From Anaerolineae bacterium (GTDB lineage: Bacteria; Chloroflexota; Anaerolineae; Anaerolineales; Villigracilaceae), in assembly GCA_003130845.1 (NCBI GenBank), contig QEXW01000080.1:62001-126000 (forward strand): a DNA stretch of 64,000 nucleotides, written 5' to 3'. Positions within the stretch are counted from its first letter, which is position 1, and every line of letters begins with the position of its first letter. The translations under genes were made by a program, and so were the position numbers. Of the stretch, positions 1,734 to 63,571 are shown piece after piece. The notes beneath the pieces are model-generated. The model was not told the DNA's origin, made no database searches, and saw only the letters and a program-made list of their open reading frames with translations.

Positions 1734-1740
1734 CATATTC

Positions 1741-2673: not shown

Positions 2674-2688
2674 AACCGAGAGGTGACC

Positions 2689-3375: not shown

Positions 3376-3393
3376 AGACCCAAAGGGGACAGA

Positions 3394-4137: not shown

Positions 4138-4149
4138 CTACTCTCTGCA

Positions 4150-4866
4150 ATGAGTTATACGCCACTCATCTGGCCTCTCATTACCTCGGCTGCGATTTTA
4201 TTTGGCATCGCCATTTCTATGCGCCGTTACCGTAGACTGCCGGCGGCGTATGCTTTTCGTCTCTTCTGCCTGCTAGGGGGATTGTGGAGTGTTACCTACA
4301 CGTTCAATCTCGTGACGGTGGAACTGCACCCCAAACTCATCATCAGCCAAATCCAATCCGCAGTGTCCAGCTTTTTAGCCCCGGCCGTGTTTGTTTTTAT
4401 TATCGAATATACCGGGCATAGTAACTGGCTCAACCGCAGCCATTTAACCTGGTTACTGCTTATTCCAAGCATCACAGCCCTGGCGGCTCTTACGAGCACT
4501 CACCACTCTTTGTTTCGGTATAACTTCACCGTAGAAATTGCGAACGGCTTGCCTATTTTAGAAAGTGACCGAGGCCCATTTTATTGGCTGCAACAGAGTT
4601 ACTCGATTGCCGTTGTAGTCGCGGCGAGTCTCATCGTCATCCTGGCCTTTCATAAACGCCCGCAGTACTTCCGCAACATGCTCATCTTCTTAGCCGGCCT
4701 AATCATTCCGGCGCTTGTTCATCTGTTATACCTGGGGAAAATTTTGCCTTTACGCGGCCTGCAACTGACTCCATTTACAATGGTGTTCACCAGCCTCATT
4801 TACCTGTATGCCTTGCGCGGCACACTCTTATTTGAAGTCGCCCCATTGCACGCCAAACTGTGCTAG
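4150..4866 (+). CDS. 7TM sensor module, N-terminal half of a split histidine kinase
   Basis: This 238-residue, almost wholly hydrophobic protein resembles the seven-helix N-terminal sensor region of 7TM histidine kinases (HisKA_7TM type). In that family the last helix runs straight into a PAS domain. Here the frame ends at TAG (4864-4866) just after FEVAPLHAKLC, and the next frame begins at GTG 4860 with LDNIADLVIVLD, exactly where the PAS domain should follow. One missing base near 4857-4861 would explain the split. It may be a real two-gene arrangement with a 7-base overlap, or a sequencing or assembly error. Confidence 0.7.
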   Translation: MSYTPLIWPLITSAAILFGIAISMRRYRRLPAAYAFRLFCLLGGLWSVTYTFNLVTVELHPKLIISQIQSAVSSFLAPAVFVFIIEYTGHSNWLNRSHLTWLLLIPSITALAALTSTHHSLFRYNFTVEIANGLPILESDRGPFYWLQQSYSIAVVVAASLIVILAFHKRPQYFRNMLIFLAGLIIPALVHLLYLGKILPLRGLQLTPFTMVFTSLIYLYALRGTLLFEVAPLHAKLC

Positions 4867-6185: not shown

Positions 6186-6831
6186 ACCAGCCATAAAAAT
6201 TATGGTGGTTGATGACCACCCGATGGTACGGAAGGGGTTAAGCATGTTCATCTCCGGCTTTTCTGACTTGCAATTGGTCGGAGAGGCAGCAAATGCCGCC
6301 GCGGCGTTAGAACTCTACCGCCGTGAACGACCGGATGTCGTACTGATGGACTTGGTCATGCCTGAGGAAGATGGTGCCAGCATCATCCATCGTATTCGAC
6401 AAGAATTTCCACAAGCAGCGATGATTGCGCTCACTTCCTTTGGGGAAGAACACCTAATCCAAGCCGCTCTACGCGCGGGCGCACGCGGGTTTCTTTACAA
6501 GACAGTGAGCGTAGATGAACTCGCCCAGACCATCCGTCAGGTTCATCAAGGACGCGCTATCCTAGACCCCAAAGCATCGGATGTGATGTTGCGCATGATA
6601 AGCAGTTCCACCTGGCACCAAGCGCCTGAGTTAGACGAATTAAGCGAGCGAGAAAACCAGGTTCTACAGTTACTCGTGGAAGGCCTGACCAATAAACAAA
6701 TTGCGGCACAACTTCAACTACGTCCCTCAACGGTCAAGCAATATATCAGCAACATTCTCGCCAAGCTACACGCCCAAAGCCGCACCGAAGCGGTTGCAGC
6801 TGCATTGAAAATGGGCTTGATAACAAAATAA
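6178..6831 (+). CDS. NarL/LuxR-family response regulator
   Basis: This 217-residue protein has a receiver domain (about 5-122, phospho-acceptor Asp58 in VLMDLVMP, Lys in FLYKTV) and a LuxR-type helix-turn-helix near residues 150-215 (LSERENQVLQLLVEG, NKQIAAQL). It should be the DNA-binding partner of the overlapping kinase. The ATG at 6178 is chosen because GAAGGAGAG lies upstream and because an earlier in-frame ATG would extend 24 bases into the kinase. Its targets are unknown. After the stop there is a run of hairpins (see 6832-6938). Confidence 0.92.
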   Translation: MNEPAIKIMVVDDHPMVRKGLSMFISGFSDLQLVGEAANAAAALELYRRERPDVVLMDLVMPEEDGASIIHRIRQEFPQAAMIALTSFGEEHLIQAALRAGARGFLYKTVSVDELAQTIRQVHQGRAILDPKASDVMLRMISSSTWHQAPELDELSERENQVLQLLVEGLTNKQIAAQLQLRPSTVKQYISNILAKLHAQSRTEAVAAALKMGLITK

Positions 6832-45049: not shown

Positions 45050-45180
45050 GGAATACTCCTCTAGCAGGCCGCGACAGCCTTGCGAAATGTCATAATGCAA
45101 GCCTATCATACTCGCATATCGAACTTCTTGCAAAAACCCTACACAGCACAAATGTTTGATTGGCAACCCAATCCACAAGG

Positions 45181-45195
45181 TATAATCTGAACGAT
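45181..45195 (+). promoter_or_regulatory. -10 near the start of a LysM/M23 lipoprotein gene
   Basis: TATAAT at 45181-45186 is 9 bases before the ATG at 45196, with no SD. The transcript is probably leaderless or nearly so. Confidence 0.55.
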
Positions 45196-46821
45196 ATGGG
45201 TACTTTGCACCGCTTTTTGACTATCATACTCTTGGTAAGCCTACTGACTGCCTGTCGTGGCGACCCTATGCTGTGGGGCGCACCGTTCACTCCAACTCCA
45301 CCCCTGAACGGCCTGGCTCTTCCCCCCACGTACACACCATACCCTAGCCCAACACCTGGCCCCACGCCGCTGGTGGTCTTGCCTTTGCCCGGCAGCCCCA
45401 CCCCAGGCATGCCGCCCACCCGCGCCCTAAGCGGTGGCGGTGGCGAGACAGCCATTATCCCCCAGCAAACACCCACCGCCACTTTGCCGCCGGTCAACAC
45501 CGCCGGGCCAATGGATGTATACCGCAGCCAAGGCGGCGATACGCTCAATATTATCGCCAACCGGTTTGGGTTAGCCGCCAGCCAACTGATTGCCAGTATC
45601 ATCTTACCGCCGGCCGATGTCTTGTTGCCGGTCGGAACGCTGCTGTTGGTTCCCAAGCCCGACCCACAAGAAGTGCGCACGCCTGGCGAACGGCTAATCC
45701 CAGATAGTGAAATTGTGTATGGCCCCTCGACCATTGATTTTGATACCGCCGCCTACATTGCAGCAGAAAATGGATACTTAAGCCAATATAAAGAATACAC
45801 CCTGAGTAGGGGCTGGCTGACCGGCGCTGAAGCGATTGAGCGAATTGCGATTGAAAACTCCCTCAACCCGCGCATTTTGCTGGCCATCATCGAATGGGAG
45901 AGCCACTGGGTGCGTGGAAGCCCTCAACACCTAGCAGCAGAAGATTATCCGCTCGGCTACATTGACTATCACTATCGCGGTTTGTTCCGGCAATTGATGT
46001 GGGCCGCAGGAACCCTTTCAGAGGGTTACTATGGCTGGCGTTCTGGCATGCTCACCACCATCACCTTTAAGGATGGCTCAACCATCCGCCTTAACCCCCA
46101 CCTAAACGCCGGTACTGCGGCTCTGCAATATTACTTTGCACAAACACACAGCCGCGCCGAATGGGAGCAGATTGTCTCCCCAACGGGGTTTGCCATGCTA
46201 TACGCTGAGATGTTTGGCTCTTACCTAGCACGTGCCCAGGCTTTCGAGCCGACCCTGCCAGACGGTCTGCGGCAGCCGGAACTCAGTCTGCCCTTTGAAC
46301 GCGGCAAAATCTGGGCTTTCACCGGGGGGCCGCATTCGGCTTGGGAGCGACGCGGCGCCTTGGCGGCGCTCGACTTTGCCCCCGGTTCCACCGTCGGCGG
46401 TTGCTCCAAATCGGATTTGTGGGTGCTGGCGCCTGCACCAGGCACCGTTGTCCGTGTTGAAGAAGGCGTGGTTGTCCTCGATTTGGATGGTGATGGCGAT
46501 GAACGTACAGGCTGGGCCATCTTGTTCTTGCACATCGCCACGCAAGGCCGTGCCAAACTCGGCGCTATGTTGCAAAGAGATGACAAAATCGGTTATCCCT
46601 CTTGTGAGGGCGGGGTGGCCACCGGCACGCACGTTCACATTGCCCGCAAATACAATGGCGAATGGATTTTAGCCGATGGCCCCATCCCCTTTGACTTGGA
46701 GGGTTGGATTTCGCGCAACGGCGAGGCACCCTATAAAGGCACCCTGACCAAAGGCGATACAGTGATTGAAGCCAGCACCAGCGGCAGTTTTGAGACGCGC
46801 ATCATTCGAGAGAAAAAATAA
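45196..46821 (+). CDS. lipoprotein: LysM, lysozyme-like and M23 peptidase domains
   Basis: This 541-residue lipoprotein has lipobox LLTAC (Cys near residue 18), a Pro/Thr linker, a LysM-like unit near 110-155 (GGDTLNIIANRFG), a middle helical domain (about 180-350) resembling lytic transglycosylases with Glu in IIEWESHW, and a C-terminal M23-type domain with His and Asp in GGPHSAW and ALDFAP, plus THVHIA. It may cleave both glycan and peptide bonds of peptidoglycan. The next gene is a diverged tandem copy, 17 bases downstream. Confidence 0.75.
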   Translation: MGTLHRFLTIILLVSLLTACRGDPMLWGAPFTPTPPLNGLALPPTYTPYPSPTPGPTPLVVLPLPGSPTPGMPPTRALSGGGGETAIIPQQTPTATLPPVNTAGPMDVYRSQGGDTLNIIANRFGLAASQLIASIILPPADVLLPVGTLLLVPKPDPQEVRTPGERLIPDSEIVYGPSTIDFDTAAYIAAENGYLSQYKEYTLSRGWLTGAEAIERIAIENSLNPRILLAIIEWESHWVRGSPQHLAAEDYPLGYIDYHYRGLFRQLMWAAGTLSEGYYGWRSGMLTTITFKDGSTIRLNPHLNAGTAALQYYFAQTHSRAEWEQIVSPTGFAMLYAEMFGSYLARAQAFEPTLPDGLRQPELSLPFERGKIWAFTGGPHSAWERRGALAALDFAPGSTVGGCSKSDLWVLAPAPGTVVRVEEGVVVLDLDGDGDERTGWAILFLHIATQGRAKLGAMLQRDDKIGYPSCEGGVATGTHVHIARKYNGEWILADGPIPFDLEGWISRNGEAPYKGTLTKGDTVIEASTSGSFETRIIREKK

Positions 46822-46838: not shown

Positions 46839-48311
46839 ATGGCAACTCGGCAAGTTCGGCTCATATACGCTGTACTGCTCCTGATGTTGGGCCTGGCCTC
46901 CTGCACCACTACGCCAGAGCAAGTGTTCTCAACGCCAGAAGTTGCTGGGTACGAGCAATTTCCTACCTCGGCCATCGCCTTTACGCCCTTACCCACCCGT
47001 CCACCCTACGAACCCGGTCAACTGGTAGATTATATTGCCCAAACCGGTGATACGCTGCCCGCCTTAGCAGCGCGTTTCAACACCACCGAAGCCGAAATCC
47101 GCGCCGCCAACCCCATCATCCCGCTCGATGCCAGCACCATGCCACCAGGGTTCCCCATGAAAATCCCTATCTACTATAAAGCCTTGTGGGGAACTCCCTA
47201 TCAAATTTTGCCCGATAGCCTGTTTGTCAATGGCCCGGCACAAATTGGCTTTGATGTGAGCGCCTTTGTCAACGCACAACCAGGCTGGCTAAAAAACTAC
47301 CGCGAGCCAATCGCCGATGGGATACGCTCTGGTGCAGAACTGGTGGAAATCGTCGCCACGAACTTCAGCGTTAGCCCGCGTTTGCTGCTGGCCCTGTTGG
47401 ATTACTACGCCGGCGCGCTGAGCAAGCCAGAAATGCCAGAAGATACCTCGTATGTGTTGAACTACTACAATCCATCTTACCGCGGCGTTTACCTACAATT
47501 GATTCATACAGCCAACACGCTCAACAATGGCTACTATGCTTGGCGGCGCGGCACATTACTGGAGTTTGAAACGCCCGATGGCCGCCTGTATCGCCCGGAC
47601 CCTTGGCAAAATGCGGCTACGGTTGCCATTCAGTATACTTTTTCGCGCCTGCACTCGCCGCCACTCTTTGAACAAATGATTGGCCCTGGCGGGTTGGCGG
47701 AAACGTATGCTCGGTTGTTCGGCGATCCCTGGCAAAACGTTCAGCCGCACATCCCAGGCAGCCTGAAGCAGCCGGCCCTGATATTACCCTTTGAAAGCGG
47801 CAAAGCCTGGAACTACACCGGCGGCCCCCATACCGGCTGGGGCAAAGGCGAACCGTATGCCGCCATTGATTTTGCACCAACCGGCGTTTCAGAGTGCAAC
47901 GCTACCGGGGAATGGGTCACCGCGATGGCGGATGGTGTAGTCGCGCGCTCTCAACATGGTCAGATTTTGCTCGATTTAGACGGAGATGGAGACGAGCGCA
48001 CCGGTTGGGTGATATTCTACCTGCACCTCGCCACCGAAAACCGCCCCTCGGCAGGCACAACCTTTAAGCAGGGTGACCGTTTGGGGCATGCCTCCTGTGA
48101 AGGCGGCGAATCGACCGGCACGCACGTTCACATCGCCCGTAAATACAATGGCGAATGGATTCTGGCCGATAGCCCCATCCCTTTCGAGATGGAAGGCTGG
48201 GTGGTGCACAATGGCACTGTTCCTTACAAAGGCACACTCACCCGCTTTTCTCAAACCGTCACCGCTTCGAGCCAATCAGAAGCCAAAAGTGTTATCAAAC
48301 GGGAGGAATAA
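46839..48311 (+). CDS. lipoprotein: LysM, degenerate lysozyme-like and M23 peptidase domains
   Basis: This 490-residue paralogue of the preceding gene has lipobox GLASC (Cys near 23), a LysM-like unit (QTGDTLPALAARF, about 68-115), a middle helical domain and a C-terminal M23 domain with GGPHTGW, AIDFAP and THVHIA. In the middle domain the EWES of the upstream copy is replaced by DYYAG, so the putative glycan-cleaving Glu is lost. The peptidase residues remain. The pair looks like a duplication with division of labour. Confidence 0.75.
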   Translation: MATRQVRLIYAVLLLMLGLASCTTTPEQVFSTPEVAGYEQFPTSAIAFTPLPTRPPYEPGQLVDYIAQTGDTLPALAARFNTTEAEIRAANPIIPLDASTMPPGFPMKIPIYYKALWGTPYQILPDSLFVNGPAQIGFDVSAFVNAQPGWLKNYREPIADGIRSGAELVEIVATNFSVSPRLLLALLDYYAGALSKPEMPEDTSYVLNYYNPSYRGVYLQLIHTANTLNNGYYAWRRGTLLEFETPDGRLYRPDPWQNAATVAIQYTFSRLHSPPLFEQMIGPGGLAETYARLFGDPWQNVQPHIPGSLKQPALILPFESGKAWNYTGGPHTGWGKGEPYAAIDFAPTGVSECNATGEWVTAMADGVVARSQHGQILLDLDGDGDERTGWVIFYLHLATENRPSAGTTFKQGDRLGHASCEGGESTGTHVHIARKYNGEWILADSPIPFEMEGWVVHNGTVPYKGTLTRFSQTVTASSQSEAKSVIKREE

Positions 48312-49267: not shown

Positions 49268-52551
<3,284 letters not shown>

Positions 52552-52670
52552 CACGCAAAGTCATCAATTTTGAAAGGCACACCGAGAATGTTGCAGAATT
52601 CAACCAATCGGCATGCTATCCTATTACCAAATTTTTAGCAAAATGTGCGAACTTGTTGCAAGGAGTGGCC
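52552..52670 (+). promoter_or_regulatory. control region of the WYL-cas3 operon
   Basis: Contains TGTTGCAGAATTCAAC (52589-52604), a second TGTTGCA (52654-52660) that runs directly into the SD AAGGAG (52660-52665), and a possible extended -10 TGCTATCCT (52614-52622). If that -10 is right, the first site covers the -35 region. Confidence 0.45.
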
Positions 52671-55600
52671 ATGAGCGGCTCAAATAAAGCAGAACGTCTG
52701 ACCGAACTGAAGCGCTTGTATATTCAGCGCGCCTGGAGCGATGCTGAACTGGCGGAGAAACTGGAGACGAGGCGCGAGACCATCTTCCGCGACCGTCGCG
52801 ACTTGGAGGCCGAGGGTTACCCTTTTGTGCAAGTCGAACATGGGCGCTGGAAGATTGACCGAACGCGCCTGATTTCCGAGATCAAAGTGAGCCTGCACGA
52901 GGCGCTGACGCTCTATTTGGCGGCGCGCAAAACCGCGCGGCAGACGCGCTTTCGCCACCCGCACGCAGCCAGCGGCGTGGAGAAACTGGCCGCCGTCCTG
53001 CATCAGCCAATGGCTGAACGCTTGCTCAAAACGGCAGAACGACTCTCCAAGCAAAGCGAAGACCCTCACAAGGTCAAGATTCTGGAGTCCGTCACACAAG
53101 GCTGGGTGGAACAGCGCAAGGTGCGCATCGAGTATCAGCGGCTCGGACAGGAAGGCCTGACCCGCCACACGATTAACCCCTATCTCATCGAACCATCCAT
53201 CTGGAGCGATAGCATCTACGTCATCGCGCAGAGCGATTTTGACGACAACATCTATGCCTTCAAAATCGAGCGCATTCTGCACGCCTTTGTGACGAGCGAA
53301 ACCTTTGAGATTCCCACCGCGTTTGACGATGACCGCCTGCTCAAACATGCCTGGGGCATCTGGTATGCCGCCCGCCCGCCCGTAACGGTGAAACTGCGCT
53401 TCTTCCCGAACCCCGCCGTGATTCAACGCCTGGAGGAAAGCGTTTGGCATCCGCTGGAACGGATTGAGCCAACCGAAGACGGCGGGCGCATTTGGAGCGT
53501 GGACATCGCCGAATGGCGCGAGATGCTGCCCTGGATTCGCGGCTGGGGCGCGGATTGCGAGGTGTTGGCACCGAAAGAACTGCGCGAGGCACTGGAGAAG
53601 GAGGTGAAGAAGATGGCGCGGGTGTATGGGGTGGGAAGTCTCAGCGAGCCAAAGACGCGCTTTTTTGCCCATCGGCGCGATGGGGAAGACCGTGAATATT
53701 GGCAGCCGCTGATTGACCATTTGCGAAAAACCGCTGAAATGGCGCGTGACTTTGGCGCGGACGCCAATGTGGCGGAACTGGCATACATCGCAGGGATGAT
53801 TCACGACTTGGGCAAATACTCCCTTGAGTTTCAAAAGCGGCTGGAAGGCGGTCCGCGCGTGGACCATTCGACGGCTGGAGCGAAGGAACTCAAGAAATTG
53901 CTTGAAGGCACGCCACAGGAAGCCCTTGCTACCCTGCTCGCCTATCCCATCATGGGACATCACGCAGGCTTGCCCGATTATGGAAGCGAAATTGATTTGG
54001 AAGGCAGCACCGTCTGTGGGCGGTTGAAAAATCGCATTCCTGATTACAGTGAATACAAAAGCGAATTAGATTTATCCGCTTTGCCTTTTCCAAAGCATCT
54101 CCCCGTTCGTCCCTTGCGCCTGCCAATCATTCCTGAAAAACCGCCAAAGGATTATTTTGGGTTTTCGCTTTCCTTCCTGACGCGCATGATTTATTCGGCG
54201 TTGGTGGACGCGGACTTTCAGGAAACCGAGACCTACATGAAAGGCGCAAAACCGCGCGGCGGACATGACGACATCCCCACCCTGCGCGAAAAATTGGACG
54301 CGCACCTGAAGCAGTTTGAAAACCCGACCAGCGACATCAACCGCAAGCGCAATGAGATACTTCACGCCTGCATCGAAAAAGGCAAAAGCGAAACCCCTGG
54401 CTTCTTCTCGCTCACCGTCCCCACAGGCGGCGGCAAGACGCTGGCTTCGATGGCGTTCGCGCTCCATCACGCCGCCGCGCATGGGCTGAAGCGCGTCATT
54501 TACGTCATCCCTTTCACCACCATCATCGAACAGAACGCCAAAGTGTTCAAAAACATTTTTGGCGAAGAGCCTGTACTGGAACATCACTCCAACTTCGATT
54601 GGGAAGGCAAAAAGAAGGACAATCCCGACGACCGCACCAACAGCGCGCTTGCCAAACTCAAACTGGCGGCGGAGAACTGGGATATTCCCATCGTGGTCAC
54701 AACCAACGTGCAGTTTTTTGAATCGCTGTTTGCCAATCGGTCATCGCGCTGCCGCAAACTGCACAACATCGCCAAAAGCGTGATTATCTTCGACGAAGCC
54801 CAAATGCTGCCGCGCGAGTACATGCGCCCCGCGATGGCGGCGGTGTGGGAATTGGTGACCAACTACGGGGCGAGCGCGGTATTTTGCACCGCCACCCAGC
54901 CTGGACTGGAACGCTTCCTGCCCCAAGAGACGAAAGTGACAGAACTCGCGCCTAATCCGCAGGAATTGTTCGACTTCTACAAACGCGTAGAAGTGAAGCA
55001 TTTAGGAACGCTGAACGATGAAGACCTGCTTGCCCGCCTGAACGCGCATGAGCAAGCCCTGTGCATCGTCAACACCCGCCGCCACGCCAGCGGACTTTAT
55101 AGCGGCTTGCACGGCGAGGGGAATTACCATCTTTCGACGCTGATGTGTCCCGCGCACCGCCGCGCCAAACTTGAGGAAATCAAGGGACGGTTAGCGGGCG
55201 GGCAGCCCTGCCGTGTGGTCTCGACGACGGTGATGGAAGCGGGCATTGACCTGGATTTTCCCGTCGGCTACCGCGCCCTTTCGGGGTTGGATTCTATCAA
55301 TCAGGCAGCGGGGCGCGTCAACCGTGAGATGAAGCGCGGCGTGAGCGAGATGTTCGTCTTCGAGCCAAAGTCGGAGTTCATCAAGAAAACGCCGTCATTC
55401 CTGAAACAAACGGCGGAAGTTGCGCGCATGGTCTTGCGCGACCACGCCGCAGCGCCGATTTCCATCCCCGCCATTCAGGCGTTCTTCGGGCAGTTGTATA
55501 ACCTGCAAGACCCGCAGGCGTTCGATTTCAAGCGCATCATGGACTGCTTCGACAGCGCCGAAGGCAAATTCAGTTTCGAGAAGGCGGCGCGGGAGTTTCA

Positions 55601-55892
55601 AATCATCGAAGACCCGACTGTGACAGTGATTATCCCTTACAACGAGGAGGCAGAACGGCTCATTGAAGAACTGAAATACACCGATTATCCATTCTCCACC
55701 TTGCGAAAACTTCAGCCCTACACAGTTTCGATTTACGAGGGCGAGTTTGACAAACTCAGTTCCAAAGGAGTGATTTTGACCATCGAAGACATGTATCACG
55801 TTCTCAGTCCTGATTCCATTCAAGAGTACTATGACCCCGCTAGAGGTCTGCTCGTCCCCGAAAGCGGCGGCGGGGAGGGGTTGTTTTTCTAA
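52671..55892 (+). CDS. cas3: WYL-domain regulator fused to type I-C Cas3
   Basis: This 1073-residue protein joins two complete proteins. Residues 1-315 are a WYL-type regulator: a winged helix (AELAEKLETRRETIFRDRRD), a WYL domain (about 140-205, ending IYVIAQSD and AFKIERI) and a WCX tail (VTVKLRFFP to LRGAL-like LREALEKE). Residues 325-1073 are Cas3: HD nuclease (His378-Asp379 in IHDLGK, then DHSTAG and GHHAG), Walker A TGGGKT near 585-590, DEAQ at 708-711, CTATQ, and QAAGRVNR near 878-885. Cas3 unwinds and degrades DNA marked by Cascade. The frame is open throughout. The start is preceded by AAGGAG. An internal start at 53613 could give Cas3 alone. Confidence 0.9.
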   Translation: MSGSNKAERLTELKRLYIQRAWSDAELAEKLETRRETIFRDRRDLEAEGYPFVQVEHGRWKIDRTRLISEIKVSLHEALTLYLAARKTARQTRFRHPHAASGVEKLAAVLHQPMAERLLKTAERLSKQSEDPHKVKILESVTQGWVEQRKVRIEYQRLGQEGLTRHTINPYLIEPSIWSDSIYVIAQSDFDDNIYAFKIERILHAFVTSETFEIPTAFDDDRLLKHAWGIWYAARPPVTVKLRFFPNPAVIQRLEESVWHPLERIEPTEDGGRIWSVDIAEWREMLPWIRGWGADCEVLAPKELREALEKEVKKMARVYGVGSLSEPKTRFFAHRRDGEDREYWQPLIDHLRKTAEMARDFGADANVAELAYIAGMIHDLGKYSLEFQKRLEGGPRVDHSTAGAKELKKLLEGTPQEALATLLAYPIMGHHAGLPDYGSEIDLEGSTVCGRLKNRIPDYSEYKSELDLSALPFPKHLPVRPLRLPIIPEKPPKDYFGFSLSFLTRMIYSALVDADFQETETYMKGAKPRGGHDDIPTLREKLDAHLKQFENPTSDINRKRNEILHACIEKGKSETPGFFSLTVPTGGGKTLASMAFALHHAAAHGLKRVIYVIPFTTIIEQNAKVFKNIFGEEPVLEHHSNFDWEGKKKDNPDDRTNSALAKLKLAAENWDIPIVVTTNVQFFESLFANRSSRCRKLHNIAKSVIIFDEAQMLPREYMRPAMAAVWELVTNYGASAVFCTATQPGLERFLPQETKVTELAPNPQELFDFYKRVEVKHLGTLNDEDLLARLNAHEQALCIVNTRRHASGLYSGLHGEGNYHLSTLMCPAHRRAKLEEIKGRLAGGQPCRVVSTTVMEAGIDLDFPVGYRALSGLDSINQAAGRVNREMKRGVSEMFVFEPKSEFIKKTPSFLKQTAEVARMVLRDHAAAPISIPAIQAFFGQLYNLQDPQAFDFKRIMDCFDSAEGKFSFEKAAREFQIIEDPTVTVIIPYNEEAERLIEELKYTDYPFSTLRKLQPYTVSIYEGEFDKLSSKGVILTIEDMYHVLSPDSIQEYYDPARGLLVPESGGGEGLFF
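53598..53615 (+). promoter_or_regulatory. internal Shine-Dalgarno and ATG at the WYL/Cas3 junction
   Basis: AAGGAGGTG at 53598-53606 is a near-perfect SD, 8 bases from GGAGG to an in-frame ATG at 53613. It sits exactly at the end of the WCX domain. The codons encode Glu-Lys-Glu-Val-Lys-Lys-Met, so chance is possible. Confidence 0.55.
53613..55892 (+). CDS. cas3: possible internally initiated Cas3 (nested product)
   Basis: Translation from the internal ATG at 53613 would give 759 residues with the HD nuclease and helicase intact, close to the usual length of free type I-C Cas3. The fusion from 52671 would give regulator plus Cas3. The two could be made from one mRNA, as is known for Cas8 and Cas11 in type I-C. 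This is a prediction from the SD and domain boundary only. Confidence 0.45.
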   Translation: MARVYGVGSLSEPKTRFFAHRRDGEDREYWQPLIDHLRKTAEMARDFGADANVAELAYIAGMIHDLGKYSLEFQKRLEGGPRVDHSTAGAKELKKLLEGTPQEALATLLAYPIMGHHAGLPDYGSEIDLEGSTVCGRLKNRIPDYSEYKSELDLSALPFPKHLPVRPLRLPIIPEKPPKDYFGFSLSFLTRMIYSALVDADFQETETYMKGAKPRGGHDDIPTLREKLDAHLKQFENPTSDINRKRNEILHACIEKGKSETPGFFSLTVPTGGGKTLASMAFALHHAAAHGLKRVIYVIPFTTIIEQNAKVFKNIFGEEPVLEHHSNFDWEGKKKDNPDDRTNSALAKLKLAAENWDIPIVVTTNVQFFESLFANRSSRCRKLHNIAKSVIIFDEAQMLPREYMRPAMAAVWELVTNYGASAVFCTATQPGLERFLPQETKVTELAPNPQELFDFYKRVEVKHLGTLNDEDLLARLNAHEQALCIVNTRRHASGLYSGLHGEGNYHLSTLMCPAHRRAKLEEIKGRLAGGQPCRVVSTTVMEAGIDLDFPVGYRALSGLDSINQAAGRVNREMKRGVSEMFVFEPKSEFIKKTPSFLKQTAEVARMVLRDHAAAPISIPAIQAFFGQLYNLQDPQAFDFKRIMDCFDSAEGKFSFEKAAREFQIIEDPTVTVIIPYNEEAERLIEELKYTDYPFSTLRKLQPYTVSIYEGEFDKLSSKGVILTIEDMYHVLSPDSIQEYYDPARGLLVPESGGGEGLFF

Positions 55893-56043: not shown

Positions 56044-56712
56044 ATGGGATACGGTATCACCATCCGAGTTGAGGGGCGCTACGCCCTGTTCACCCGTCCC
56101 GAAATGAAAGTGGAGCGCGTCAGTTACGACGTCATCACCCCATCGGCGGCGCGCGGCATTATCGAAGCGGTCTATTGGAAGCCCGCCATCCGCTGGGTGA
56201 TCGATAAAATCCACGTCCTGCGCGAAATCGAGTTCACCAACATCCGCCGCAACGAGGTGAGCGATAAAGCGTCGGTGGATAACGCCCTACAGGTGATGAA
56301 AGGCGCGGAAAAGCCGCTCTACATCGCCGCCACCGAGGTTCGTCAGCAGCGCGCCGCGATGGTCTTGAAAGATGTGGATTACATCATCGAGGCGCACTTT
56401 GAGAAGGTAGAGAAGGAATGGGGCGAGCGCGACACGGAAGAGGGGCATTACAACATCGTCCTGCGCCGCCTGCGCAACGGGCAGCACTTTCACGCTCCCT
56501 GCCTGGGGACGCGCGAGTTCCCCGCCAAAGTGACGCTCATCGAGGACAAAGACGCAATCCCCAAAAGCCCGCTCGTGGGCAAGCGCGACCTGGGCTACAT
56601 GCTCTACGACCTGGATTTCTCCAACCCGCGCGACATTCAGCCGATGTTCTTCCGCGCCATCATGGAAGACGGCGTGATGCTCGTGCCAAAGCCTGAGGAG
56701 GTGCGGCGATGA
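56044..56712 (+). CDS. cas5c: Cas5c (Cas5d), pre-crRNA endoribonuclease
   Basis: This 222-residue protein is a type I-C Cas5: the start YGITIRVEGRYALFTRPEMKVERVSYDVITPSAARG contains the usual RYALFTRPE core and the PSAARG segment. In type I-C, Cas5 replaces Cas6, cuts the repeat RNA and stays on the crRNA 5' handle. Family catalytic residues lie in the Tyr/Lys/His set near the N-terminus; I did not assign them one by one. AAGGAGG precedes the ATG. It overlaps cas8c by 4 bases (ATGA). Confidence 0.93.
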   Translation: MGYGITIRVEGRYALFTRPEMKVERVSYDVITPSAARGIIEAVYWKPAIRWVIDKIHVLREIEFTNIRRNEVSDKASVDNALQVMKGAEKPLYIAATEVRQQRAAMVLKDVDYIIEAHFEKVEKEWGERDTEEGHYNIVLRRLRNGQHFHAPCLGTREFPAKVTLIEDKDAIPKSPLVGKRDLGYMLYDLDFSNPRDIQPMFFRAIMEDGVMLVPKPEEVRR

Positions 56713-58610
56713 TTTTGCAGTCGCTTTATAACTACTATCAAGTTTTGCTGAACGACCCGCCAGAGGGCGTAGAGATTGCCGAACCAGGCTACAGCAATGC
56801 GCCTGTCAGTTACGCGCTCAATCTATCGAACGAGGGCGAGTTGCTGGACATCATCCCGCTATCGATTCCAGTCCAACAGGGCAAGAAGATGGTAGAGCGC
56901 CCCAAACGTATGAATGTTCCTGAACAGGTCAAGCGCAGCGTGAACGTTGCCGCCAATTTTTTGTGTGACAACGCCGCGTATGTGCTTGGGCTGACAGGGA
57001 AAGAAGCCAAAGACCCAGCGTATGCCCAAAAGCGCTTCGAGGCGTTTCGAGAATTGAACGTAGAAATTCTTAAAAAAACCAATTCTTCGTCCGCGCGTGC
57101 GGTCATGGCTTTCTTGCAAAAGCATGACCCGCAAACCGCATCGCAACATCCTGTGGTTGCCCGCCACTTGGAAGGATTGCTGGAGGGTGGCAATCTCATC
57201 TTTCAGGTGCAAGGCAAGAGCGTGCTGGATGACCCTGAAATTCGGCGCGTTTGGGAAGAAATTAGAACAGGGCAACAGGCGAATGAAATGCAGTGCTTGG
57301 TCAGCGGGCAAAAAGAGCCTGTTGCGCGCCTGCACCCTGACATCAAAGGAGTGCCAGGAGCGCAAACAAAGGGCGCATCGCTGGTGAGTTTCAACCTGGA
57401 TGCCTTTACTTCTTACGGCAAGGAACAGGGCACAAATTCGCCCGTCAGCCAGCGCGCCGCATCGGGCTATGGCGTGGCGCTCAATTTCCTGCTCTCAAGA
57501 CAAAATCCCAACCAGCCTATTTTTCTAGGAGATACTGCTGTCGTTTACTGGGCAGACGCCCCTGACAATCGTTATGCCCAAGCGTTCTACTCGTTTCTAA
57601 AGCCAGAGTTCCAGCAAGAGCAGGAAGAAAGCGAAACCGAAGAAGCCAAAGGCAAACGCAAACGCGCCAAAGAAGTAGAAAAGCAAATGGGCGAAGTGGC
57701 TGAATCTGTGCGGCAAGGAAAAGCCATTGACCTGGCAGAATTACGCAAACAGGTCGAGAACGAGTTGGACAAAAGCACACGTTTCTACGTGCTTGGACTG
57801 GCGCCGAACGCATCACGCCTTGCCGTGCGCTTCTTTCTTACCGAGCCGTTTGGCGTCTTTGCCGAGCGCATCATGCAGCATTACGACGACCTGCAAATCG
57901 AGAAGGAATACGCCAACCAACCAACCTACCTTTCGCCCTACCGCATCCTTGCCGAGTGCGTTTCGCCCAAAGTGACTCAGCGCGACGACGAGGTGAAAAA
58001 ATCCTGGTCTCTGCTGGGCGGGGCGTTCATGCGTTCGATTCTCACGGGCGCGCCCTACCCCGAAGGTCTGTATGCCGCCATGCTCAACCGCATCCGCCAT
58101 GACTCGGACGAAACCAACGAGAAGGGCAAAACGCGCAGCGTCAAAATCAACTACATCCGCGCCGCCTACATCAAGGCGCATCTCATCCGCAAGTACCGCC
58201 GTGGAGGCAACAATCCTTATCAGGAGGCTTTGCAAATGTCACTCAATGATTCTTATACCCATCCCGCCTACGTGCTGGGGCGCCTGTTCGCCGTGCTGGA
58301 AAAGGCGCAACGAGAAGCCATCGGGCAGAACATCAACGCCACCATTAAAGACCGCTACTTTACATCCGCTTGCGCTTCGCCCGCCAGCGTCTTCCCGACG
58401 CTGTTACGGCTCGCGCATCACTGGACGACCAAAGCCGAATACGGCGGCGTATCGGACAGGAAAATCCAGGACTTACTGGACATGCTCGAAGCCAAAGCGT
58501 TCCCGCCGCGCCTGTCATTGGATGAGCAAGGCGTATTCGTACTAGGTTACTATCACCAGCGCGCCGCGTTCTATGCCAAGAAAAATAACGGCGAGGAAGC
58601 AACCCAATGA
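56709..58610 (+). CDS. cas8c: Cas8c (Csd1), large subunit of type I-C Cascade
   Basis: This 633-residue protein matches Cas8c/Csd1 in length and pattern (MILQSLYNYYQVL at the start, GYGVALNFLLSR in the middle, ALRLAHH-like LLRLAHHW near the end). It recognises the PAM and holds the non-target strand. A charged, Glu/Lys-rich stretch lies near residues 300-350. The last 124 codons are also read as Cas11c from an internal start. It overlaps cas5c by 4 bases, and its stop touches a palindromic repeat. Confidence 0.93.
   Translation: MILQSLYNYYQVLLNDPPEGVEIAEPGYSNAPVSYALNLSNEGELLDIIPLSIPVQQGKKMVERPKRMNVPEQVKRSVNVAANFLCDNAAYVLGLTGKEAKDPAYAQKRFEAFRELNVEILKKTNSSSARAVMAFLQKHDPQTASQHPVVARHLEGLLEGGNLIFQVQGKSVLDDPEIRRVWEEIRTGQQANEMQCLVSGQKEPVARLHPDIKGVPGAQTKGASLVSFNLDAFTSYGKEQGTNSPVSQRAASGYGVALNFLLSRQNPNQPIFLGDTAVVYWADAPDNRYAQAFYSFLKPEFQQEQEESETEEAKGKRKRAKEVEKQMGEVAESVRQGKAIDLAELRKQVENELDKSTRFYVLGLAPNASRLAVRFFLTEPFGVFAERIMQHYDDLQIEKEYANQPTYLSPYRILAECVSPKVTQRDDEVKKSWSLLGGAFMRSILTGAPYPEGLYAAMLNRIRHDSDETNEKGKTRSVKINYIRAAYIKAHLIRKYRRGGNNPYQEALQMSLNDSYTHPAYVLGRLFAVLEKAQREAIGQNINATIKDRYFTSACASPASVFPTLLRLAHHWTTKAEYGGVSDRKIQDLLDMLEAKAFPPRLSLDEQGVFVLGYYHQRAAFYAKKNNGEEATQ
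58222..58238 (+). promoter_or_regulatory. internal Shine-Dalgarno and ATG for Cas11c
   Basis: AGGAGG at 58222-58227 lies 8 bases before an in-frame ATG at 58236. Type I-C systems are known to translate the small subunit from such a site in cas8c. Confidence 0.8.
58236..58610 (+). CDS. cas11c: Cas11c, small subunit nested in cas8c
   Basis: The internal start gives a 124-residue helical protein beginning MSLNDSYTHPAYVLGRLFAV, which is the size and start pattern of Cas11c found in other type I-C systems. Cas11 forms the belly filament of Cascade and helps hold the target and non-target strands. It is in the same frame as cas8c and shares its stop. The assignment rests on the SD and on established knowledge of the subtype. 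Confidence 0.8.
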   Translation: MSLNDSYTHPAYVLGRLFAVLEKAQREAIGQNINATIKDRYFTSACASPASVFPTLLRLAHHWTTKAEYGGVSDRKIQDLLDMLEAKAFPPRLSLDEQGVFVLGYYHQRAAFYAKKNNGEEATQ

Positions 58611-58748: not shown

Positions 58749-59615
58749 ATGACCACCCTTTCCAACCGCTACGAATTCGTTCTGCTCTACGATGTGGAGA
58801 ACGGCAATCCCAACGGCGACCCCGACGCGGGCAACATGCCGCGCATTGACCCCGAAACGGGCTACGGCATCGTCACCGACGTCTCGCTCAAGCGCAAAAT
58901 CCGCAATTATGTGGAGATGGTCAAAGGCGACGCGGCGGGCTATCGCATTTACATCAAAGAAGGCATTCCGCTGAACGCCAATCATAAAGAAGCCTATCTC
59001 GCCGTCGGACTAGAGCCTGGCAAGAAAGCCGATGTTGCTGGCGTGAACAAAGCCCGCGCCTGGATGTGCCAGAACTTTTACGACATTCGCACGTTTGGCG
59101 CCGTCTTGAGCGTGGGCGATAACTGCGGTCAGGTGCGCGGACCCGTGCAATTGAACTTCTCCCGCAGCATTGACCCCATCGTCCAGCAGGAAGTGACCAT
59201 CACCCGCCTGACCGTTACCCGCGAAGAAGAAGCCGACAAAGAGCGCACGATGGGGCGCAAGCACATCGTCCCCTACGGCTTGTACCGCGTGGAAGGTTAC
59301 ATCTCCGCCAAACTCGCCAACGACCCGACCAAAGGCACGGGCTTTTCAGAAGAAGACCTGGAACTGTTCTGGGATGCGCTGATTAATATGTTTGAGCATG
59401 ACCGCTCGGCGGCGCGCGGAAAGATGGCAACCCGCAAACTGTTTGTCTTCAAGCACGAGAGTGACCTGGGTAACGCGCCCGCGCACAAGTTGTTTGAGTT
59501 GGTCAAGGTCGAGCGCAAGCCCGACGCCAATCCCCCGCGCAGTTTTGGAGATTATGTTGTGGCGGTGAATAAGGCTGGCGTACCGCAGGGCGTGGAGTTG
59601 ATCGAAATGTTGTAA
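58749..59615 (+). CDS. cas7c: Cas7c (Csd2), backbone of type I-C Cascade
   Basis: This 288-residue RAMP protein has the Csd2 pattern (YDVENGNPNGDPDAGNMPR at the start, FNDIRTFGAV-like YDIRTFGAVLSVG, and TVTREEEADKERTMGRKH). About seven copies bind along the crRNA spacer. The length is usual. AAAGGAG lies upstream of the ATG. It is followed by a 173-base gap that is built of repeats. Confidence 0.94.
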   Translation: MTTLSNRYEFVLLYDVENGNPNGDPDAGNMPRIDPETGYGIVTDVSLKRKIRNYVEMVKGDAAGYRIYIKEGIPLNANHKEAYLAVGLEPGKKADVAGVNKARAWMCQNFYDIRTFGAVLSVGDNCGQVRGPVQLNFSRSIDPIVQQEVTITRLTVTREEEADKERTMGRKHIVPYGLYRVEGYISAKLANDPTKGTGFSEEDLELFWDALINMFEHDRSAARGKMATRKLFVFKHESDLGNAPAHKLFELVKVERKPDANPPRSFGDYVVAVNKAGVPQGVELIEML

Positions 59616-59735
59616 TTCGGCGGATTGAAATCCTGCCTCAGTGCATGGAAGTCCGCTCAAGCGGACTCGCCAAGCCCGCAGGGCTTTCACGCACTGAGCA
59701 GGGGATTTATCCCCGCGAACCCTGCCCGCAAATTA
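59616..59735. repeat. multi-hairpin repeat element upstream of cas4
   Basis: An outer stem CTCAGTGC (59637-59644) / GCACTGAG (59691-59698) encloses two perfect hairpins: AGTCCGCT/AGCGGACT (59650-59667) and AAGCCC/GGGCTT (59672-59686). GGGGAT/ATCCCC follows at 59701-59714. The whole would fold as a cloverleaf-like structure. It is not a tRNA. Confidence 0.75.
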
Positions 59736-59749
59736 TCCACGCCACAGGA

Positions 59750-59786
59750 GATTGCTTCGACCTGCTTCGCAAGTCTCGCAATGACA
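59750..59786. repeat. palindromic repeat, half copy 3 abutting cas4
   Basis: GATTGCTTCGACC...CTCGCAATGACA matches the right half of the copies at 55900 and 58611. It ends 2 bases before the cas4 ATG at 59789, leaving no Shine-Dalgarno. Confidence 0.75.
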
Positions 59787-59788
59787 GC

Positions 59789-60478
59789 ATGAAATCCGAC
59801 TACACCTCCGACGACCTCCTGCCCCTTTCGGGCATCCAGCACTTCCTGTTTTGCCGCAGGCAGTGGGCGCTGATTCACGTCGAAATGCAGTGGAAGGAAA
59901 ACGCGCTCACTGCCGAGGGGCGCATCCTGCACCAGCGCGTGGATGACCCCTTCTTCACCGAGACGAGGAATGGGGTCATCACGGCGCGTTCGGTGCCTGT
60001 GGCTTCGTACACGCTGGGGCTTTCGGGCGTGTGCGATGTGGTGGAATTCGTTCCATCACCCCCTGCCCCTCTCCCAGCGGGAGAGGGGTGCAGGCTCCCC
60101 AACCGCGAAGGACTCTACCTCCCTGTGCCTGTGGAGTACAAACGCGGCAAGCCCAAACGCGACCCTATGGACGAGGCGCAACTCTGCGCGCAAGCCATGT
60201 GCCTGGAGGAAATGCTCTCAACGAACATCCCGCGCGGTTACTTGTACTACGGTCAAACCCGCCACCGCGAGGAAGTGGAGTTCACGCCCCAATTGCGGAC
60301 GCTGGTGCAGGAGATGTCCGCAGAGATGCACAACTATTTCCGCCGCGGCTACACCCCGCGCGTCAAGACACACAAAGGCTGCCGCTCCTGTTCGCTGGCC
60401 GAAATCTGCCTGCCTGTCTTGCAAGAAAAAGCCATCCCGGCCTCCCAATACATTCAAAAGCAACTCGAAACCACGTAA
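59789..60478 (+). CDS. cas4: Cas4 exonuclease with in-frame palindrome insertion
   Basis: This 229-residue protein is a RecB-type Cas4: Cys in FLFCRRQW, His in GRILHQ, Asp in GVCDVVEF, the EYK motif in PVEYKRGK, and the C-terminal cluster Cys in GCRSCSLAEICLP. It trims prespacers and picks the PAM for Cas1. Between GVCDVVEF and PVEYK lies a stretch PSPPAPLPAGEGC that is encoded by a palindrome and is probably an insertion. The start is the ATG at 59789; the frame is open further upstream, but only through repeats. No SD is present. cas1 follows after 5 bases. Confidence 0.9.
   Translation: MKSDYTSDDLLPLSGIQHFLFCRRQWALIHVEMQWKENALTAEGRILHQRVDDPFFTETRNGVITARSVPVASYTLGLSGVCDVVEFVPSPPAPLPAGEGCRLPNREGLYLPVPVEYKRGKPKRDPMDEAQLCAQAMCLEEMLSTNIPRGYLYYGQTRHREEVEFTPQLRTLVQEMSAEMHNYFRRGYTPRVKTHKGCRSCSLAEICLPVLQEKAIPASQYIQKQLETT
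60060..60094. repeat. palindrome inside cas4
   Basis: CCCCTCTCCC (60066-60075) pairs perfectly with GGGAGAGGGG (60079-60088) over a 3-base loop, extended by CCTG/CAGG. It keeps the cas4 frame open and encodes a Pro/Ala/Gly-rich loop between two nuclease motifs. Confidence 0.8.
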
Positions 60479-60483
60479 ACACC

Positions 60484-61515
60484 ATGAAACCCCTGGCCAA
60501 CGTCTTATACATCACCACACCCGAAGCCTATCTCTCGTTAGATGGCGAAAACGTGGTCATCAAAAAAGATGAACACACCTCCACGCGCCTGCCCTTGCAC
60601 AACATCGAAAACATCGTCTGCTTCAACTGGCAGGGCGCCAGCCCGGCGTTGATGGGCGCCTGCACCGAGCGCGGCATCGGGCTGGCTTTCCTGACACCGG
60701 GAGGATACTTTCAGGGTCGCGTGCATGGTCGGGTGCGCGGTAACGTCCTGCTGCGCAAGAAGCAATACCGCCTCTCGGACGATGAAGCGCAGAGCGTCCC
60801 GATTGCCGCATCCTTTCTCATCGGCAAAATCTACAACAGCCGCAAAGTGATCGAGCGCGCCTTGCGTGACCATGCCCTGCTGGTGGACAAAGACGCCCTG
60901 AGCAAGGCTTCGGCCTTTCTCAAAGAGACGTTAGCGGCGCTGCCGAACTGCAAACGGATTGCGGAACTGATGGCCTTCGAGGGCAGCGCGGCCAAAATCT
61001 ACTTCAGCGTGTTCGACAACCTGATTCTGCATCAGAAGGAAGACTTCCGCTTCGAGGAGCGCAACCGCCGCCCGCCACTGGACAACATGAACAGCCTGCT
61101 CTCGTTCCTCTACACGCTGCTGACCAACGAGGCGGTCTCGGCGCTGGAAGCGGTCGGGCTGGACCCGTATGTGGGCTTCCTGCACGCCGACCGCCCTGGC
61201 CGCCCCTCGCTGGCGCTGGACCTGATGGAGGAACTGCGCCCGGTCTTTGCCGACCGGCTGGCGCTTTCGCTGGTAAACCGCAGGCAGGTGACGGGCAAAG
61301 GGTTCACCAGGAAAGAGAGCGGCGGGATCCTGATGGACGACGAGACGCGCAAAGCCGTCATCACTGCCTGGCAGGAACGCAAGAAAGAGGAGATCGTTCA
61401 CCCCTATCTGCAAGAGCGGATTCCCTTCGGGCTGATTCCGCACGTCCAGGCCCTGCTGCTCGCCCGTCACCTGCGCGGTGACCTGGACGCCTACCCGCCG
61501 TTTTTTTGGACGTAG
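60484..61515 (+). CDS. cas1: Cas1 integrase, type I-C
   Basis: This 343-residue protein is a type I-C Cas1, with the metal-binding Glu in MAFEGSAAKIYF, His in VGFLHADRPGRPSLA, and Glu/Asp in LDLMEELRP. It integrates prespacers with Cas2. The length is usual for Cas1c. The ATG at 60484 is 5 bases after the cas4 stop. No cas2 follows: the next gene, 57 bases on, is cmr1. A hairpin overlaps its stop codon. Confidence 0.94.
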   Translation: MKPLANVLYITTPEAYLSLDGENVVIKKDEHTSTRLPLHNIENIVCFNWQGASPALMGACTERGIGLAFLTPGGYFQGRVHGRVRGNVLLRKKQYRLSDDEAQSVPIAASFLIGKIYNSRKVIERALRDHALLVDKDALSKASAFLKETLAALPNCKRIAELMAFEGSAAKIYFSVFDNLILHQKEDFRFEERNRRPPLDNMNSLLSFLYTLLTNEAVSALEAVGLDPYVGFLHADRPGRPSLALDLMEELRPVFADRLALSLVNRRQVTGKGFTRKESGGILMDDETRKAVITAWQERKKEEIVHPYLQERIPFGLIPHVQALLLARHLRGDLDAYPPFFWT

Positions 61516-61571: not shown

Positions 61572-62567
61572 ATGCAAATCACCCTACAAACCCTCACCCC
61601 CCTGTGGACCGGCGGCATAGACCAAACCTGCGACCGCCTGCATGAGACGGGCCTGCTTGGCTCGCTGCGCTGGTGGTACGAAGCCCTGGTGCGCGGCCTG
61701 GGCGGCTACGCCTGCAACCCGACAGAACAATCTTGCATTTACGATCCTGCCAAGCCCAACAATGGATTGTGCCTAGGATGTCAGACATTTGGAGCTACAG
61801 GATGGGCAAGACGTTTTCGTCTTTTTGTTTCAGATAAAACAAGCCCGCAAAGTCCACCTGGAACAGTATCTCCAACTGGAAATCGCTTGAAAAGGAATAA
61901 GCAAGATAGACCATCATGGTATTTTCGCCCAGGACGCGGTGGCGAAACAGTCTTGCACATCTTACCCCTTCACCAAGAGTTTGACCCGATGATTATTGTG
62001 GGCTTGCTCAAACTTATCGAGCGACATGCTGGGCTGGGTGCAAAAACCCAACTGGGTTATGGGCAAATTAAAATTCAGAATGTATCCTTCTCGCCAAATA
62101 GCTTTGTGGAACACATAGCCAATCTTGCACATGCACAGTCAGAGAAAAACAAAGGCCTGCCAAATCTGCAGGAGATGTTCTTTGCCCAAGTGCAAACAAG
62201 CGACCGAGGGATAACAGCCACCTTAAACTTGCGTTATGATGTCCGAGCAAAGTTCCGAACTGCTTTTTCCAACAATCGAGCGTTGCGTCATTGGATATGT
62301 GGGACAGTAAGTGGAGACCGCGAGGCATCAAAAGTCTTTTTCTCTCAGATGGTCGATGGAGTGATGAGGGTGTGGGGATGGATACCCGATGTGCCTTCAG
62401 AAAATTTTCCAGGAATTAGCCGTGATCAAGTACTTGTAAAAATCAAGGAAGCCATAGAAGCATATGGCGAAGTTGTCTCTTGGCGAGAATTTAATTCCGA
62501 ACGAGATACTTTTGGAAAAGAATCGGATGGCAAAGCCTTTTTGTGCAGTTTACTGGAGGATAAATGA
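61572..62567 (+). CDS. cmr1: Cmr1-family RAMP protein of a type III CRISPR system
   Basis: This 331-residue RAMP protein has the Cmr1 pattern: LTPLWTGG at the start, LLGSLRWWYEALVRGLGG, a Cys-rich stretch (about 45-75; C-x-I-Y-D-P, GLCLGCQTFG) and HAGLGAKTQLGYGQ, a glycine-rich loop. Cmr1 caps the crRNA 3' end of type III-B complexes. AAGGAGG precedes the ATG. The first 50 codons are GC-rich like cas1, but from about 61730 on the gene is clearly AT-richer. It overlaps the next gene by 4 bases. Confidence 0.88.
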   Translation: MQITLQTLTPLWTGGIDQTCDRLHETGLLGSLRWWYEALVRGLGGYACNPTEQSCIYDPAKPNNGLCLGCQTFGATGWARRFRLFVSDKTSPQSPPGTVSPTGNRLKRNKQDRPSWYFRPGRGGETVLHILPLHQEFDPMIIVGLLKLIERHAGLGAKTQLGYGQIKIQNVSFSPNSFVEHIANLAHAQSEKNKGLPNLQEMFFAQVQTSDRGITATLNLRYDVRAKFRTAFSNNRALRHWICGTVSGDREASKVFFSQMVDGVMRVWGWIPDVPSENFPGISRDQVLVKIKEAIEAYGEVVSWREFNSERDTFGKESDGKAFLCSLLEDK

Positions 62568-63571
62568 ACACACTTTATGATTTCACGGTCAGATTTATCT
62601 CCGATATCCAACCACAGGTTAAATCTCTGGCAGAACAAGAGCAAAAACTGGAAAATGCAAAAAAGTCACGCGACCAAAATGCTCGTCGAGAAGCCGAGCA
62701 GAAAATAAGAGATGTTCACAAGGAACTCTTGGGGAAATCAAGCAACTCGATTGTGTACCTGTACCTGACGGCTACCCAAGAGGCTGATGGGGACGCCTTT
62801 CGTGCATCTTGGCAACAAGATGTACTGTCTCATAGGGACAGCCCCTTACAGGAATTGAAAGATTGGAAGTTGGAAAATTTCTACAAGAGCATCTGGGAGC
62901 GGCCAAAAATTGACCTTGATGGTCTCCCTGCAGCCTCCTGGTTCCTCCAATTCACCTTCACCCTCGCCAAGCCCTACATCTCGAAAGACGACAACCCTTT
63001 TTACATCATAGATAATCCCATTGTGCGCGATAAAGTCTTCCGATTGCCAATGGTGCGCCCGACGAGTTGGAAAGGCAACCTGTACTCCGCACTATGGCAA
63101 ATGGGGTATGACAAGCAGGGCGAAGCACAATTGCAACGCCTGTTTGGCGACATCCGTGATGAAGAGCAGGGGCGAGCGGGACGGCTGTTTTTCTACCCCA
63201 CCTTTTTCACCGAGACCGGCCTGGAAATCATCAATCCCCATGACCGCAAACGCCGCGTGGGAAAGAACCCGATCCTGTTTGAATGCGTCCCCGCCGGCGC
63301 CAAAGGCACCTTCTCGCTGCTCTACGTCCCCTTCGACTTGATTGGGCAGAACGAGAACGAGATCCGCCGCCAGTCCATAGAAGACTTGCAACTGGTTGCA
63401 GAAGCCATCCGCGCCATGATGCTCACCTACGGCTTCTCGGCCAAACGCACCAGCGGGTATGGGGTGGCGGAAGACGATCTCATTGATGGCAAGGTGCAAA
63501 CGAAGGCGGGTCAAAAGCCGCTCACCCGCCTGACCAACCTGCCGCAGGAGGTGAAAGATGTCGCTTTCTAG
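62564..63571 (+). CDS. RAMP-superfamily protein of the type III module, subtype unassigned
   Basis: This 335-residue protein has an N-terminal helical, charged stretch (about 15-60; EQEQKLENAKKSR, REAEQKIRDVHKEL) likely to be a coiled coil. A RAMP core follows, with RPTSWKGNLYSALWQMG (the glycine-rich loop region) and SGYGVAEDDL near the end. I cannot place it as Cmr4, Cmr6 or Csx10. Its first 120 codons are AT-rich and the rest GC-rich. It overlaps cmr1 by 4 bases and the Cas10 gene by 14. Confidence 0.75.
   Translation: MNTLYDFTVRFISDIQPQVKSLAEQEQKLENAKKSRDQNARREAEQKIRDVHKELLGKSSNSIVYLYLTATQEADGDAFRASWQQDVLSHRDSPLQELKDWKLENFYKSIWERPKIDLDGLPAASWFLQFTFTLAKPYISKDDNPFYIIDNPIVRDKVFRLPMVRPTSWKGNLYSALWQMGYDKQGEAQLQRLFGDIRDEEQGRAGRLFFYPTFFTETGLEIINPHDRKRRVGKNPILFECVPAGAKGTFSLLYVPFDLIGQNENEIRRQSIEDLQLVAEAIRAMMLTYGFSAKRTSGYGVAEDDLIDGKVQTKAGQKPLTRLTNLPQEVKDVAF

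Follow-up and report, generated by a model that had tools for sequence, protein, structure and literature searches.

A WYL regulator and Cas3 in one reading frame

The DNA analysed here, hereafter called the window, is a 64,000-nucleotide stretch from an Anaerolineae bacterium (assembly GCA_003130845.1, contig QEXW01000080.1) that harbours a type I-C CRISPR locus on its forward strand. The first cas gene of this locus (52671-55892) codes for a WYL-type transcription regulator and a Cas3 nuclease-helicase in a single protein, and it is preceded by a gene for a small winged helix-turn-helix (wHTH) protein and by two candidate operators. The fused frame runs from an ATG at 52671 to a TAA at 55890-55892 and encodes 1073 residues without any internal stop. 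Its WYL head (residues 1-322, 52671-53636) harbours the three domains of wHTH-WYL-WCX regulators in that order, namely a wHTH (about residues 1-66), WYL (137-205) and WCX (236-316). A linker of residues 323-330 (53637-53660), overlapping a low-confidence stretch of the structure model (317-327), leads to the Cas3 part (53661-55892 with the stop codon), which consists of an HD nuclease, a superfamily 2 (SF2) helicase and a C-terminal part.

Pfam signatures identified WYL (E-value 7.6e-8) and WCX (4.6e-18) in the head, followed by HD (348-444), DEAD (581-744) and the Cas3-like C-terminal domain (794-886), and the NCBIfam profiles cas3_HD and cas3_core both exceeded their cut-offs. The HD nuclease and the SF2 helicase have kept the strings HD378-379, HH430-431, PTGGGKT, DEAQ, TAT and QAAGR, which we take to be the named motifs of Cas3. 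This part aligns with solved type I-C Cas3 structures from their residue 2 (8g9u) or 5 (8zns), and these match the whole C-terminal part of the fused protein, without its N-terminal head. Pfam gave no separate HTH match in the head; the profile match of the head to DriD, a regulator of Caulobacter, begins at query position 5 and so covers the wHTH, and the model predicts helices at 6-19, 24-30 and 35-47 and strands at 52-62. That model was built from a 17-sequence alignment (mean predicted local distance difference test score, pLDDT, 74; predicted template modelling score, pTM, 0.51) and arranges the protein as wHTH, helical stretch, WYL, WCX, low-confidence linker and Cas3. In Foldseek searches with it, type I-C Cas3 ranked first, and the matches of head length were DriD with bound single-stranded DNA and PafBC; a viral fold library returned matches to helicases only. 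A reading of this DNA made from sequence alone had proposed a WYL regulator and a complete type I-C Cas3 in one frame, which is borne out by the open frame, the Pfam and NCBIfam signatures and the 8g9u alignment. The winged helix, WYL and WCX that it placed at the N-terminus were recovered by Pfam for the latter two and by the model and the DriD profile for the first, while its head of residues 1-315 is real but ends nearer to residue 322, with Cas3 proper starting at about 331.

Segment by segment, ratios of nonsynonymous to synonymous substitution rates (dN/dS) of the head are 0.08-0.18 between the window and locus L080; judging from these ratios, the head evolves under purifying selection, the wHTH and its recognition helix included. 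Residue R35 is invariant across 81 heads. A conserved internal start yielding a free Cas3 was considered and rejected: the window has a methionine at 316, but by eye the alignment consensus is a different residue there.

Some match to the fused protein is present in 36 of 61 genomes searched. In 10 other genomes it is uninterrupted and essentially full-length (53-89% identity), reading through the head-Cas3 junction where a stop or frameshift would have refuted the earlier reading, and one cultured strain, Bellilinea caldifistulae GOMI-1 (L084), carries the fusion as well. These relatives rule out an assembly or frameshift artefact.

We scanned named genomes with the head alignment and retained the best 80 of 219 loci; the sets of 81 heads or loci mentioned in this work are those 80 plus the window. 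Chloroflexota account for 77 of the 80 records in the tree, and the other three, two Brevefilum and one Promineifilum, carry no phylum. To type the loci, we used tblastn with NCBIfam-verified references for Cas3 and the effectors, and then followed the frame from the head; the I-G-like Cas3 fit the I-G model TIGR02621 best, below its cut-off. Fusions make up 52 of the 56 loci with HD-first Cas3 (I-C, 16/17; I-C variant, 10/10; I-E, 26/29). Eight of these 52 leave their contig inside Cas3, and two I-E frames (L105 and L111) are interrupted inside Cas3. By comparison, none of the 16 I-G-like loci is fused, and in 14 of them the WYL gene adjoins cas3. Since the HD domain comes first in the I-C and I-E enzymes and the helicase first in the I-G-like ones, the head of typed loci is joined solely to an HD end. 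The head is separate in the single I-B locus, and seven of the 80 loci remained untyped. A second sample, collected through Cas8c in 33 of 400 Chloroflexota genomes, comprised 13 fused heads (window included), 11 loci without WYL, 1 with WYL elsewhere in the locus and 8 undecidable ones. One locus counted among the 13 (L280) has an interrupted head before an I-C variant Cas3. WYL relatives also occur in 71 plasmid records; among the 20 matches listed, 19 are from Thermus, at 28-30% identity.

The architecture is unusual, as the earlier reading had it, but not unprecedented. One sentence of Makarova 2014 (PMC4012209) reports a WYL-Cas3 fusion in some type I systems; its domains are of the class seen here, with WYL attached to a Cas3 that has both HD and SF2 helicase, and the fusion by itself is therefore not new. 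Nor is it specific to the type I-C Cas3 named at the outset, as it extends to the I-C variant and I-E. The published passage is silent on subtypes, operators, partner genes and the exchange of modules (PMC4012209). Literature searches yielded no further work on this fusion, and the available portions of PMC12669027 and PMC10910872 do not mention it. In the literature searched, we did not find described the operators, the small wHTH partner, the restriction to HD-first Cas3 or the exchange of subtypes inside the gene.

Operators upstream of the head and their likely reader

The sequence-only reading overlooked a gene at 52345-52551 (forward strand), which codes for a 68-residue protein related to the wHTH of the head (hhalign probability 98.6%) and devoid of a sensor domain. 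We found it by tblastn in 52 of 81 loci, the window included; frames from start to stop were read in 49 of 80 loci, and that of L095 is truncated. This gene belongs to the same unit as the fused gene.

Operator P1, in the promoter of the small wHTH gene, is a perfect 19-bp palindrome, TGTTGCAGTACTTGCAACA (52281-52299), with a -10-like box, TATCCT (52309-52314), 28 nt from its start. Before the fused gene lies P2, a half-type site, TGTTGCAGAATTC (52589-52601, forward strand), followed by an extended -10-like box, TGCTATCCT (52614-52622), whose TATCCT (52617-52622) is likewise 28 nt from the start of the site. The pattern TGTTGC-N7-GCAACA occurs as 50 exact copies in the 80 loci (956,759 bases), against 0.05 expected from shuffles and two copies for all other spacers of 0-15 combined; 49 of them lie at most 800 nt upstream of the head gene and the remaining one at -855. 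When one mismatch is allowed, it lies upstream in 17/18 I-C loci (window included), 8/10 I-C variant loci, 24/28 measurable I-E loci and 6/7 untyped loci, compared with 4/655 control windows. Within I-C-type loci, the palindrome, again with up to one mismatch, accompanies the WYL head, with 10/12 measurable fused loci versus 0/12 loci without WYL (the latter include L057, which is outside the Cas8c sample). The half-type TGTTGCAGAATTC has its only exact copy in the 3.77 Mb genome here, and its control has none.

A TANNNT box stands at +28 in 55/62 palindrome sites and 26/27 half-type sites, and by eye both promoters of the window lack a -35 hexamer where one would normally stand. The sites thus cover a poor -35 region at a fixed distance from the -10 box, as in DriD, whose palindromic sites lie across poor -35 elements with a constant distance to -10 (PMC12340889). 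The BrxR family likewise has operators of inverted-repeat type ahead of a defence operon, with a WYL regulator preceding the operon and two such sites (PMC9122601), although BrxR is a separate repressor and belongs to another defence system. Both P2, which lies inside the region 52552-52670 named earlier for a test of binding by the N-terminal part, and P1 further upstream are tied to WYL loci, supporting the proposal that the head could report to the operon promoter. In three I-G-like loci (L104, L113 and L125), both arms of the operator are altered alike, to TGTTTC...GAAACA, as selection for symmetry would predict. A link to phages through the pattern TGTTGCNNTACYTGCAACA was dismissed, as its 100 stretches in viral contigs are of chance order by a rough estimate.

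Several lines of evidence, none of them a proof, point to the head as the likely reader of these operators. The palindrome stands directly before the head gene also where no small wHTH was found (e.g. L084, L114, L120, L137 and L153). In the genome of the window, we detected neither another WYL domain nor another Cas3 above cut-off, so that any WYL protein serving these promoters would be Cas3 itself. Four loci of types I-C, I-C variant and I-E (L043, L062, L063 and L079) have a different recognition helix, RRTxNNYLREL, and share another sequence before the head, GTAATTTTCCAACTGG, upstream of which three of them have a CTGGAA-N7-TTCCAG palindrome (exact in L043, with one mismatch in L062 and L063); each also has a small wHTH protein of 66-67 residues with nearly the same helix as the head. 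Among the 322 head positions, operator bases 7 and 13 are best predicted by residue 40, which lies within the recognition helix: K40 heads go with C7 in 11/11 and G13 in 10/11 cases, R40 heads in 5/55 and 1/55. In K40 loci with a small wHTH, the matching residue of the small protein is R in 6/8 cases by eye.

The head also has the basic WYL-pocket residues of DriD- and PafBC-like regulators, with K or R at position 198 in 79/81 heads and R201 in 81/81. In the profile alignment, they correspond to R211 and R214 of PafB, which are required for binding of single-stranded DNA (PMC11804915). The mycobacterial PafBC (6sj9, 9fnd) resembles the head in its wHTH-WYL-WCX order and is placed between the promoter and the part of sigma responsible for recognizing the -35 element (PMC11804915); it differs in being a heterodimer of two full WYL proteins without an enzyme domain. 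The closest solved match of the head is DriD (8tp8, 9pfq), of the same wHTH-WYL-WCX order and an activator that is itself activated by single-stranded DNA, but it is a stand-alone protein that controls a DNA damage regulon and carries no fused nuclease.

Other observations weigh against regulation of this kind by the head. Half-type sites (at most one mismatch) occur in 27/52 loci with a small wHTH and 0/29 without, and as they accompany the small protein, it may be the reader of P2. The link between residue 40 and the operator bases involves just 2-4 independent contrasts, too few for the strongest of 322 positions to be kept as more than a hint. The palindrome (at most one mismatch) is present in just 7/15 measurable I-G-like loci and is lacking in L062 and L063, two of the 12 measurable fused I-C-type loci, though these share the other site. 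Y183 of the WYL motif is replaced by H in 18/81 heads. In the genome, the exact palindrome has a single copy and the reversed control pattern two, which means that the single copy says little.

Module exchange and proposed control of the operon

On a tree of the 81 heads, the six subtype labels require 38 changes (the least possible being 5), compared with a mean of 45.2 for shuffled labels, none of 200 shuffles being as low as 38. We thus rejected the rule that head type follows Cas3 subtype, though the labels are not fully random. All 20 pairs of heads of different subtypes with at least 78% DNA identity lose their similarity 875-1005 nt from the head start, for a head of 966 nt, while in 5/7 same-subtype pairs the similarity runs past 3 kb. 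L127 (I-C) and L130 (I-E) have common chromosomal neighbours (a glycosyltransferase, a radical SAM protein and an inositol monophosphatase) and heads that are alike up to codon 305 and divergent after it; a chimeric contig is possible for this pair, as the L127 contig ends inside Cas3. In one genome bin, the heads of L143 (separate, I-G-like) and L145 (fused, I-C) are 88% identical in DNA. In the fused I-C set, identity correlations are 0.83-0.86 within the head block, 0.93 within the Cas3 block and 0.27-0.54 between them, with the boundary at the end of WCX. As read from these breakpoints, the gene contains a joint at which heads and Cas3 modules swap partners, which offers a tangible way for a locus to switch its CRISPR subtype and keep its control. 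One Brevefilum bin harbours both an I-C and an I-E locus (L093 and L098), with upstream regions and WYL heads 87% identical in DNA, and the two look as though they were under one shared control.

Cas3 generates single-stranded DNA. The explanation that we favour, and consider somewhat probable, is that Cas3 here has a second role, in which it would sense nucleic acid and, through P1 and P2, regulate its own operon together with the small wHTH gene. The protein would be a bifunctional Cas3, whose C-terminal part acts as an ordinary type I-C nuclease-helicase and whose head, as a complete WYL transcription regulator, would bind 52281-52299 and 52589-52601 and thereby control both the small wHTH gene and the operon of cas genes in which its own gene comes first. 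We infer operator binding by the head, the ligand of the WYL pocket and the sign of control: the pocket would take up single-stranded DNA or a similar nucleic acid, a product of Cas3 itself, the ligand-bound protein would activate the operon in the manner of DriD and PafBC, and interference would thus raise its own expression. The small wHTH protein, with a related DNA-binding domain and no sensor, may pair or compete with the head, as a partner or a competing brake. Judging by its relatives, an activator like DriD is more likely than a repressor.

The same autoregulator might nevertheless work with the opposite sign, the head repressing P1 and P2 until a ligand or target engagement by Cas3 releases it from the operator and derepresses the operon. 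BrxR binds two inverted-repeat sites, one good and one poor, and represses its defence operon, as Sll7009 does a type I-D locus (PMC9122601), the BrxR site overlaps its promoter at about -51 to -27 (PMC9122589), and the window also has two sites of unequal symmetry. The lack of a -35-like hexamer (by eye) and the near-invariant 28-nt spacing to the -10 box suit an activator better, however, and DriD and PafBC, the solved proteins closest to the head, both activate transcription; we regard repression as rather unlikely. It appears less likely still that the head is mainly an accessory domain that binds single-stranded DNA or tethers Cas3 for its processing, and that the small wHTH protein alone runs the promoters. 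Such a role is known from the Thermotoga PIF1 helicase, whose WYL domain binds single-stranded DNA and couples ATPase activity to unwinding (PMC9122601), and it would fit both the joining of the head to HD-first Cas3 only (52/56 versus 0/16 typed loci) and the association of P2 with the small wHTH gene. It accounts poorly for the purifying selection on the wHTH and its recognition helix with their invariant R35, for palindromes where no small wHTH was found, for near-identical heads in fused and separate forms (L143 and L145) and for the movement of heads between unrelated kinds of Cas3, which is contrary to a close fit to one of them. A chance fusion of neighbouring genes without a function of its own might be imagined, as separate WYL genes also adjoin cas3 in the 14 I-G-like loci and in L144, L153, L155 and L159. 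We consider it very improbable given the same contrast between HD-first and I-G-like loci despite their shared gene order, the low dN/dS of all head segments and the survival of the fused state through many exchanges.

Were Cas3 its own activator gated by single-stranded DNA, the products of DNA degradation would turn on synthesis of the machinery that makes them, and interference would feed back directly and positively on expression. Little is understood of how an attack is sensed by type I CRISPR operons, and in this case a single molecule would serve as sensor, regulator and effector. WYL1 of type VI-D, a WYL protein that modulates a CRISPR effector, is in contrast a separate accessory protein of an RNA-targeting system (PMC6547453). 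The broader proposal, in which the WYL head, small wHTH gene and operators form a portable control cassette that takes up and swaps whole I-C, I-C variant and I-E interference modules through recombination within the gene and Cas3 is in addition its own activator gated by single-stranded DNA, is more tentative, and we would call it possible rather than probable. The family includes a cultured host and offers natural controls in which similar heads occur fused and separate, even in one bin (L143 and L145), and together with the defined candidate operators they make it directly testable whether interference feeds back on expression.

Remainder of the locus and neighbouring genes

Downstream of the fused gene, the operon continues on the forward strand with cas5c (56044-56712), cas8c (csd1, 56709-58610), cas7c (csd2, 58749-59615), cas4 (59645-60478) and cas1c (60475-61515), identified with Pfam and NCBIfam, or with NCBIfam for cas4, the real start of which is probably later, as relatives align from about residue 45. 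The order cas3-cas5c-cas8c-cas7c-cas4-cas1 and the signature protein Cas8c/Csd1 are those of type I-C. A type III-B-like cmr operon is found between cas1 and cas2, at 61572-63571 of the window and 565-6814 of the stretch that follows it on the contig (L040), and cas2 and a CRISPR array come after it, at the contig end. Its Cas10/Cmr2-like protein (L040 1559-4318, 919 residues) has an HDIGK string, no GGDD string and a weak palm match, and may be without cyclic oligoadenylate synthesis. On the other side of the locus, a 999-residue protein that by eye resembles molybdenum hydroxylases (49268-52267) ends 13 nt before P1. Further upstream, adjacent genes (45160-46821 and 46839-48311) code for clearly similar lipoprotein-like proteins with like C-terminal parts, as judged by eye, and are probably a tandem duplication.

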